From a virus, in the IMG/VR virus record IMGVR_UViG_3300044612_001184, positions 1-25,106 of that record: a stretch of 25,106 nucleotides of DNA. One strand, 5' to 3'. Of this stretch, positions 21,351 through 24,157 are shown piece after piece (the stretch's first letter is position 1; each line of letters begins with the position of its first letter). The notes below the pieces were generated by a model, which saw nothing but the letters and a program-made list of their open reading frames with translations, made no database searches and was not told where the DNA came from. Made by a program: the position numbers and the translations under genes.

Positions 21351-21358
21351 CAAAGATA
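21351..21358 (-). promoter_or_regulatory. Bacteroidetes-type -7 box (TATCTTTG)
   Basis: Leftward, TATCTTTG matches TAnnTTTG and lies 20 bases before the ATG at 21331, just after the T-run of a terminator. The -33 box is weak. It is the likely promoter of the metallopeptidase-to-membrane-protein operon. Confidence 0.5.
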
Positions 21359-21359
21359 T

Positions 21360-21405
21360 AAAAAAACCCAAGCAGTAATTCTTGATCAGAGAAACTTACT
21401 TGGGT
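21360..21405 (-). terminator. Terminator closing the tRNA/structured-RNA unit
   Basis: Leftward, ACCCAAG pairs with CTTGGGT. An inner helix (TAA/TTA and TTCT/AGAA) continues after small bulges, and seven T follow. It separates the tRNA transcript from the operon starting at 21331. Confidence 0.8.
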
Positions 21406-21525
21406 GTTGCTACAGTTATACTTGACAGCTTTCCTGTGCAGAGAAGGCCAGAGAGTGAGCGAGCAGATCTTACGGTATGCCCTCCTGGCACTGAGCCTGC
21501 AGATTCTATCTACAGGGATGGAGTG
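21406..21525 (-). ncRNA. Candidate structured noncoding RNA downstream of tRNA-Asn
   Basis: This 120-base tract between the tRNA and its terminator has no ORF. It is markedly richer in G+C than the genome around it: 48 of 86 bases in 21441-21526. Leftward it can fold CACT/AGTG enclosing the hairpin CTGTAG/CTGCAG, then GCCAGGAG/CTC(T)CTGGC, then a small ACAG/CTGT hairpin. High GC in an AT-rich phage and adjacency to a tRNA recall the stable RNAs C and D in the T4 tRNA cluster, whose roles are unclear. No known RNA family is recognised, and the strand is inferred from the tRNA and terminator. Confidence 0.5.
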
Positions 21526-21599
21526 CGCTTCTTCTAAGGCTCGAACTTAGGACCCCCAGATTAACAGTCTAGTGCTCTAACCAACTGAGCTAAAGAAGC
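21526..21599 (-). tRNA. tRNA-Asn (GTT anticodon)
   Basis: A complete 74-base cloverleaf is readable leftward: acceptor GCTTCTT/AAGAAGC, D-stem GCTC/GAGC, anticodon stem CTAGA/TCTGG with loop CTGTTAA, five-base variable loop, T-stem CTAAG/CTTAG with loop TTCGAGC, and discriminator G as expected for Asn. The anticodon GTT is at 21565-21563. CCA is not encoded. It would supply AAC/AAU decoding, apt for a phage whose longest gene is full of Asn codons. A terminator abuts its 5' end and a structured tract follows its 3' end. Confidence 0.97.
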
Positions 21600-21757: not shown

Positions 21758-21787
21758 GTTACCAAGTGGTAACTTACCCCATGGTAA
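21758..21787. promoter_or_regulatory. Tandem dyads GTTACC-N4-GGTAAC and TTACC-N4-GGTAA
   Basis: Two perfect inverted repeats with four-base spacers lie back to back in the divergent region. The half-site and spacer resemble the array at 8751-8780. A dimeric repressor or activator binding both is plausible but unproven. Confidence 0.4.
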
Positions 21788-22258: not shown

Positions 22259-22270
22259 CTAACCCTTTAC
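22259..22270 (+). promoter_or_regulatory. CTAACCCTT motif before the structured RNA tract
   Basis: CTAACCCTTTAC follows a pyrimidine tract (CCCTCTCTTT) and precedes a unit with no ORF, so this copy seems to drive an RNA rather than a protein. Confidence 0.5.
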
Positions 22271-22503
22271 TTAATTAAAAATATATACTCTCATCCAAGC
22301 AGGTATTAACGCCAGAAGATTGATGTATTATTCATCTTCCAATAGGGACATCAAGGGTTGCAACCTTGTGAGAGTACTATACTGTTTCCTGATTGAACTG
22401 AACAAATGATGTTCTCATAGCAGTATTTTTATGTAACAATCAGAGGCATTCTCCTTAAAGGCTTTGGAGATGTAAGTACCGTAAACAGAGTTAGCCACTC
22501 ACC

Positions 22504-22521
22504 AAGATCATTAAGATCATT
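22504..22521 (+). repeat. Tandem AAGATCATT pair
   Basis: Two adjacent nine-base copies lie between the folded domains and the terminator of the candidate RNA. They are unpaired in the fold described and could be an antisense or protein-binding segment. Confidence 0.6.
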
Positions 22522-22528
22522 AAGAAGG

Positions 22529-22556
22529 GAATACCATAAAGGTATTCTCTTTTTTT
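22529..22556 (+). terminator. Terminator of the candidate RNA gene
   Basis: GAATACC pairs perfectly with GGTATTC around ATAAA, followed by TCTTTTTTT. There is no upstream protein gene for it to serve. Confidence 0.88.
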
Positions 22557-23163: not shown

Positions 23164-23571
23164 ATGAAAGCAAAATTAGCATTGTCTACACCTAGTAAGA
23201 ACTCTAAAACAGGTTGGACACACAAGTACATCATTACAGGTACTAAAGAAGAGTTAGATAAATTCATGAAGACTCAAAACTTCTTGGACTATCCTTTGCA
23301 TGATGAAGTTACGGGTGAACCAATAGTGTTCCGTAATGAACCTATGTTATCTGATCCGTGTGATGTTGGAATCAATCCTAAGAACAATATGCACTATCTA
23401 AGTGATGCCGCTATAATAGCAAACATTGCAAGGGTGAGCAAATTGGAGAAAATGTCACAAACTATGGCAAATGCTATGGCACAAGAAACTGTGGCAGAAA
23501 TACGTGGAGTATCTAGATTCCGCAGTATGAGTATTCCTGATGCGGAAGTGAAGGAAGAAACTAAAGAGTAA
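23164..23571 (+). CDS. Unknown 135-residue protein, rightward cassette
   Basis: The first half (KTGWTHKYIITGTKEELDKF, then YPLHDEVTGEPIVFRNEP) resembles small proteins seen in other Bacteroidetes phages in which a beta strand and the phrase TGxP-hydrophobic-F recur. I know no function for them. The second half (SDAAIIANIARVSKLEKMSQ...) is helical and Met/Ala-rich and could mediate oligomerisation; the tail is acidic. The double stop TAATAA ends the gene shortly before a 12-base-pair terminator stem. Confidence 0.7.
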   Translation: MKAKLALSTPSKNSKTGWTHKYIITGTKEELDKFMKTQNFLDYPLHDEVTGEPIVFRNEPMLSDPCDVGINPKNNMHYLSDAAIIANIARVSKLEKMSQTMANAMAQETVAEIRGVSRFRSMSIPDAEVKEETKE

Positions 23572-23636: not shown

Positions 23637-23646
23637 CTAACCCTTT
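23637..23646 (+). promoter_or_regulatory. CTAACCCTT motif before a noncoding half-kilobase
   Basis: CTAACCCTTT follows CCCTCTCTTTTT just as in the other cassettes, but the next ATG of a real gene is more than 500 bases away. Confidence 0.5.
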
Positions 23647-23655
23647 GTTGCCATA

Positions 23656-23701
23656 GTGGGAATATGTATATGTATTATATACATGTAGTAGTATAACCCA
23701 C
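23656..23701 (+). other. Long two-part hairpin
   Basis: GTGGG pairs with CCCAC on the outside, and ATGTATAT pairs with ATATACAT inside around a five-base loop, with an unequal internal loop between. It begins ten bases after a CTAACCCTT motif, so it would sit at the 5' end of the RNA. Confidence 0.55.
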
Positions 23702-23713
23702 ATAATATACAGT

Positions 23714-23736
23714 GTTCAACATAATGTATAATGCTA
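23714..23736 (+). repeat. GTTCAACATAATG repeat, copy 1
   Basis: This copy and the one at 23771-23793 share GTTCAACATAATG and then differ at three positions before ATGCTA. A shorter third copy, GTTCAACAT, lies at 23922. The starts are 57 and 151 bases apart. Copies 2 and 3 are also preceded by ATTCTC. Confidence 0.65.
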
Positions 23737-23770
23737 ATGGAGTAGTGATATAGGAAAATATTATTCTCCC

Positions 23771-23793
23771 GTTCAACATAATGCAAGATGCTA
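23771..23793 (+). repeat. GTTCAACATAATG repeat, copy 2
   Basis: This is the second near-copy; it continues into CTAGGAG where copy 1 has CTAATGGAG. Repeats of this type can be protein-binding iterons. Confidence 0.65.
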
Positions 23794-24134
23794 GGAGTTG
23801 TCTCCACCGTGTGTAACAATGAGACTCAGTATCTCATAATCAAGTAGTTATATTTTTGTAAATTGTGCGTGAATGTGTGTTAATGTGGTGAAAGGTGTTC
23901 ATCTTCATCACTATTCTCACTGTTCAACATGAGTACAAAATGGGCTAACTAGCTGTATGTGAATATTTATATAGCTAACACAAGACTAAACAGTTCCCTG
24001 TATACAATACATTAAGCATTACTATACATATATTAATCAGTATTACTATTACTTATAGTATTATTATTAGTGTTATGTGCTTTAAGACAGTAAATGCTTC
24101 CGGAAACCTTTGTAAAATATATAATCTCAATAAT

Positions 24135-24148
24135 AATAATCTCAAAAT
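24135..24148 (+). repeat. AATAATCTCAAAAT leader element
   Basis: The same 14 bases lie in the leader of the 269-residue gene here and directly over the ATG of the next gene at 25059-25072. A partial copy (ATAATCTCAA) is at 24121. It may mark a shared translation-initiation or promoter element of these two genes, which lack a close CTAACCC motif. Confidence 0.45.
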
Positions 24149-24157
24149 TTAAACCTT

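Follow-up and report, generated by a model that had tools for sequence, protein, structure and literature searches.

A probable new family of pseudoknotted RNA domains with a hypervariable arm in viral early regions

Structured phage RNAs of unknown function have already been described. GOLLD and ROOL are RNAs of 600–900 nt, of unknown function, that are often found near phage tRNA genes (PMC12286853), and the HDV-like theta ribozymes are reported to be small structured RNAs of gut phages associated with phage tRNAs (PMC10879173). Here we analyse a short non-coding cassette of an early region and show that it holds a copy of a structured domain, module A, of which about 100 distinct copies could be extracted from viral sequences. 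Rfam 15, which includes GOLLD and ROOL, gave no match over module A at gathering thresholds or at relaxed E-values, and the open-licence literature that we searched held no description of such RNAs.

The window, that is, the whole stretch analysed, comprises 25,106 nt of a 25 kb IMG/VR virus record (IMGVR_UViG_3300044612_001184). Its portal and large terminase are related, though at low identity, to their counterparts in crAss-like phages (phrog_6547, phrog_6681; 22–32% to crAss-like records in tblastn comparisons of portal and terminase), the top portal match being Leptolyngbya phage Lbo-JY46 (32%). With a related portal and large terminase taken as the mark of crAss-like kinship, sequence comparison places the virus among the relatives of these phages. 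By portal, the closest of its named relatives is Lbo-JY46 (loci L222–L224), a phage of a cyanobacterium; the window phage need not, therefore, have a Bacteroidota as its host. The layout of Lbo-JY46 is similar and its early non-coding gaps are long; a search for module A in it found none. Megablast of the window gave no match, and a nucleotide search of the cassette against named phages returned chance matches only.

In the window, structural genes on the − strand are followed by a tRNA-Asn gene (21525–21599, − strand; ARAGORN, Rfam) and, from 22 kb, by small + strand genes whose early cassettes are separated by terminator-like sites. Three further features of this surrounding region were recorded. 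A second conserved non-coding stretch lies between tRNA-Asn and a terminator-like hairpin (21351–21524, − strand); it is not an Rfam family, and DNA resembling it occurs in 44 loci, including some in which no window-like tRNA-Asn was found adjacent. A non-coding leader of about 510 nt (23646–24157, + strand) precedes a gene of 269 aa and contains the block GTCTCCACCGTGTGTA; of 102 loci examined, 15 have this block. Finally, the divergent intergenic region carries a perfect palindrome, GTTACCAAGTGGTAAC (21758–21773), which is also present in L003 and is a possible origin or operator.

The cassette itself (22259–22556) is short, contains no protein gene and holds two separable RNA elements, not one. 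It opens with the motif CTAACCCTT (22259–22267, + strand), present in five exact copies in the window against 0.26 expected, a number reached by none of 100 shuffles. All five lie on the + strand within the early-gene stretch, and elsewhere the motif stands 30–44 nt ahead of the ATG in other cassettes, from which we infer a promoter- or leader-like role. The cassette closes with an intrinsic terminator (22522–22556, + strand; −16.4 kcal/mol, z −5.4), and no ORF of at least 40 aa was found in it except the tail of an out-of-frame ORF overlapping the upstream gene. The motif, the strong terminator and the lack of an ORF had all been noted in a first-pass annotation and are borne out. The same annotation proposed a single new RNA made of two closed domains. 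Judged by energy alone, the whole region folds only a little better than expected by chance (z −2.3); domain 1 of that proposal folds weakly by itself (z −1.8), and domain 2, closed by CTGTTT/AAACAG, folds no better than shuffles (z −0.12). Because folding energy alone is too weak, the structure was established from homologues.

A search of IMG/VR by protein anchors and patterns yielded about 220 loci; the protein encoded next to the cassette (23164–23571), used as a scan query, found none. Module A measures about 65–210 nt. Its 3' end, CAAGGRTTGCAACCTTGTGAGAGT, was matched in at least 119 stretches of viral sequence; its exact form was absent from all 84,980 GTDB genomes scanned, one for each bacterial or archaeal species. 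Sixteen of 19 records longer than 100 kb hold one to three model copies each, a proportion that is no estimate of prevalence since many of these records were fetched for holding module A. One copy, on the reverse strand of L049 (14942–15037), has its 3' P1 strand replaced by TACTCAT; it has either been rearranged or decayed, or the assembly is at fault.

An alignment of 37 copies defines module A (22286–22376, + strand, as are all its parts) as a three-way junction with a pseudoknot and a hypervariable arm. The constant frame consists of an 8-bp closing stem, P1, in which TACTCTCA (22286–22293) pairs with TGAGAGTA (22369–22376) and five of the eight pairs change on both sides; a junction, TCCAAGCAGG (22294–22303); a 5-bp hairpin, P3 (CAAGG-GTTGCAA-CCTTG, 22352–22368), stacked on P1, with compensated change of CAAGG/CCTTG to CAGGG/CCCTG; and a 4-bp pseudoknot between GCAG of the junction (22299–22302) and UUGC of the P3 loop (22358–22361). 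The hypervariable arm, P2 (22304–22351), is inserted between junction and P3. The ACTCTCA/TGAGAGT stem (22287–22293/22369–22375) and the T-arm-sized hairpin (22352–22368) had been recognized in the first-pass annotation, and both are present and covary in relatives. New are the eighth pair of P1 (22286 with 22376), which also covaries, and the pseudoknot.

Covariance analysis, which that annotation had suggested as a check, bears out a conserved structure. In the 37 copies, picked to include variants and therefore describing pairing, not natural frequencies, 99.8% of the cells of P1, P3 and the pseudoknot are paired, and seven pairs (28 cells), distributed over all three helices, have changed on both sides, against at most three pairs and five cells for slid-partner controls. 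The covariation score is 0.186 against 0.065 or less for slid partners, and none of 500 shuffles reached it. As the 3' end had served to fetch the loci, an extra scan was run in which neither P1 nor the outer pairs of P3 were specified; all eight P1 pairs were present in 40 of its 43 distinct copies, and new compensated types appeared, such as TTCTCCTA/TAGGAGAA. In the pseudoknot, whose core is nearly invariant, covariation comes from a few variant copies in which C–G has become U–A on both sides (GCAG:UUGC, GUAG:UUAC, AUAG:UUAU); two more variants, L113 and the second L003 copy, retain three pairs out of four, as judged by eye.

The P3 loop reads RUUGCAA in 98 of 104 copies, and its palindromic UUGCAA was considered as a dimerizing kissing loop. 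The intramolecular pseudoknot is favoured over this candidate, because the loops AUUACAG and UUUGCCG lose the palindrome yet keep the pseudoknot. Module A also has invariant unpaired bases and, within the covarying pseudoknot, an invariant G–U pair. G–U pairs are seen in P1 and P3 without any A–C cells, which, together with the strand that module A shares with the gene after it, indicates that the element acts as RNA of the + strand. The covariance model R1 matches the window copy at E 4e-14, this copy being part of the training set. As the homologues carry compensatory changes and no Rfam family matches, module A very probably represents a new family of structured RNA, in agreement with the earlier proposal of a new structured RNA in a cassette of its own.

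The arm P2 behaves quite differently from the frame. It is about 20 to 170 nt long in most copies and falls into 54 types with unrelated interiors (fewer than 30% shared 6-mers). P2 is nevertheless structurally constrained: its ends pair better than ends taken from other copies (one of 200 shuffles was as good), and compensatory changes are found inside the arm in two types, sampled 9 and 10 times. The type present in the window has five members, among which variation is too small for covariation. Outside P2 the window matches L002, but the arms of the two are unrelated, and L019 and L034 share one P2 type between different flanks. From such cases, the same flanks with different arms and the same arm with different flanks, we infer that P2 is exchanged between otherwise similar phages by recombination at its conserved ends. 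A search for P2 arms in other modules found none, the outside matches being diverged or truncated A modules and one partial match of 35 nt.

The second part of the cassette is a separate small RNA, element 2 (22379–22500 plus the terminator, + strand). Its long hairpin (22379–22426) pairs ATACTG (22379–22384) with CAGTAT (22421–22426) and AAC with GTT around the loop TGAACAAATGAT, and is imperfect mid-stem in the window. In homologues inspected by eye the loop UGAACAAAUGAU is kept while the paired sequences change together (GTGAT/ATCAC in L204, AATGAT/ATCATT in L107). A middle hairpin (22447–22472), CATTCTCC/GGAGATG, becomes TCCC/GGGA in L179 and CTC/GAG in L003 and L204. The small hairpin GAGT-TAGCC-ACTC (22488–22500), correctly predicted by the first-pass annotation as a GAGT/ACTC stem (22488–22491/22497–22500), is replaced at the same place by GTCT/AGAC in L179 and GGAT/ATCC in L107, again by eye, and has one mismatch in L002. 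The closed domain CTGTTT/AAACAG did not survive, its stem being broken in L002, L003 and L004, and neither did the idea of one two-domain RNA, since the halves separate: L003 carries element 2 without module A, with its own CTAACCCTT and its own terminator. The cassette of the window therefore consists of element 2 preceded by module A.

In most other loci module A precedes protein genes. In 92 of 98 cases its strand is also that of the gene that follows, a 92:6 bias that in part reflects a mostly one-stranded early region. The next genes are unrelated early genes of 48 families, for which Pfam gave nothing informative. Eleven copies stand 29–36 nt ahead of an ATG, many others are 200–600 nt away from the next ATG, and in 78 of 92 cases no terminator-like site separates module A from the gene. 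Among 102 pairs of copies with the same P2 type, 5 have downstream genes of one family, while among all 3564 pairs the figure is 115. The type does not follow the next gene, and a role of P2 as a gene-specific regulator is not supported.

The reading that we tentatively favour, at somewhat less than an even chance, is that module A serves as a generic 5' leader domain. This is suggested by its position, by the variety of the next genes, by its presence ahead of a small RNA that exists independently and by the independence of P2 type from the gene. Early phage transcripts would carry the folded module A at their 5' end or close to it, and its rigid core could protect the transcript or pass it on to an RNA-binding partner from phage or host. 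P2 would be free to diversify by recombination at its conserved ends, a fixed arm perhaps being selected against by host defences that cleave or sense RNA. In the window the transcript so headed would be a small RNA instead of an mRNA. Against a leader, distances of 200–600 nt to the ATG allow for possible separate non-coding transcripts, the strand bias is partly that of the region, and protection of a generic kind would not in itself call for so variable an arm.

In an appreciable, though doubtful, alternative, module A, alone or in tandem with other modules, is itself the product and acts in trans on a factor of host defence or RNA processing, as a decoy, sponge or inhibitor; P2 would be its variable display or target-recognition part. 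The stand-alone terminated cassette of the window, the hypervariable yet structurally constrained arm, the tandem arrays in long non-coding stretches and the terminator-like site before the next gene in 14 of 92 copies are all consistent with it, whereas most copies have no such site and some adjoin the start region of a gene. The earlier suggestion that the transcript itself is the product accordingly fits the window locus and does not extend to most copies of module A. It is unlikely that the domain is a riboswitch-like cis regulator whose pseudoknotted core senses a ligand or protein and controls the next gene: the compact pseudoknotted junction, the invariant unpaired bases and the closeness of some copies to start codons would suit such a role, but unsystematic inspection noticed no alternative pairing with an expression platform, the next genes belong to 48 families, one copy heads a small RNA and P2 type is independent of the gene.

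Recognition of the P1/P3 stack and its 7-nt loop by RNase P or another tRNA enzyme, as substrate or decoy, is quite improbable. This weak option is kept open by the stacking of P3 on P1 without a linker, by the T-arm size of the hairpin and by the conserved tail A-C-N-A. Against it, and against the tRNA mimicry envisaged in the first-pass annotation, stand the length of P1, 8 bp in place of the 7 bp of an acceptor stem, a loop that departs from the T-loop consensus, a third tail position (T 37, A 36, G 18, C 13) that shows no preference for CCA, and the results of ARAGORN and of the Rfam tRNA and tmRNA models, whose sole call in the window was tRNA-Asn, with no match over module A. Least probable of all is that module A functions as DNA, with inverted ends that only look like a stem, and is a site of recombination or insertion or else a mobile element. 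The conserved ends around a swapped interior and the one to three copies per genome might suggest this; against it stand the fixed orientation relative to genes, the covarying pseudoknot with its invariant G–U pair and the RNA structure kept in P2 within types.

Module A often occurs in tandem with other elements. Module B (in L197, L183, L168, L171 and others) has a closing stem TGCAC/GTGCA with variants TGTAC/GTACA, a hairpin loop TTCCCAAGG and a variable arm of its own, CAGTTGTAAT/ATTACAACTG. Its stems covary (CTCAC/GTGAG, CCTGA/TCAGG, TCTAC/GTAGA, TCTCA/TGAGA, CTTAT/ATAAG, CTAAC/GTTAG); the loop had been written into the search pattern and is invariant by selection, while the changing stems were not selected. 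A CCC:GGG pseudoknot with the tail GAGGGG is possible in module B. Further recurring elements were seen in the flanks of module A in L042, L040, L051, L067 and L019, namely C (CAATAGAAAGGCAGTGATATTCTGC...CTGCTC), D (ACCACAAGGTTTCAGGC...TTGACTTGTGGT), E and F. It is conceivable, if rather speculative, that the early region is a combinatorial RNA system, in which pseudoknot-locked scaffolds (A, B and others), each with a swappable hypervariable arm, would be strung in varied orders into long leaders or non-coding RNAs. Conflict with RNA-targeting host defences would be the driver, and the system would be the RNA counterpart of the mosaic, rapidly diversifying proteins of phages.

Present in more than 100 viral sequences, with swapped arms on a pseudoknotted core that covaries, module A is a specific RNA that lends itself to testing in an important group of viruses and, if the arms diversify under host pressure, offers a route to the study of phage–host conflict at the RNA level. 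HDV-like ribozymes are built on a nested double pseudoknot; in module A the pseudoknot is single and the core differs from that of the theta ribozymes, and the Rfam ribozyme models gave no match to it. With the acceptor/T-arm minihelix of tRNA and the tRNA-like domain of tmRNA it shares a closing stem, a directly stacked hairpin of 5 bp with a 7-nt loop, an inserted third arm and a loop that contacts the junction. Unlike them, it has a closing stem of 8 bp and neither D arm, anticodon arm nor CCA, and its loop RUUGCAA pairs with the junction and departs from the consensus UUCRANN. GOLLD and ROOL are likewise structured phage RNAs with pseudoknots, and GOLLD, too, combines a conserved with a less conserved part (PMC12286853). 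They are single RNAs of 600–900 nt, whereas module A is far smaller, modular and placed ahead of many genes; what is unusual here is a constant pseudoknotted frame that carries exchangeable arms and is used in tandem with other such frames.
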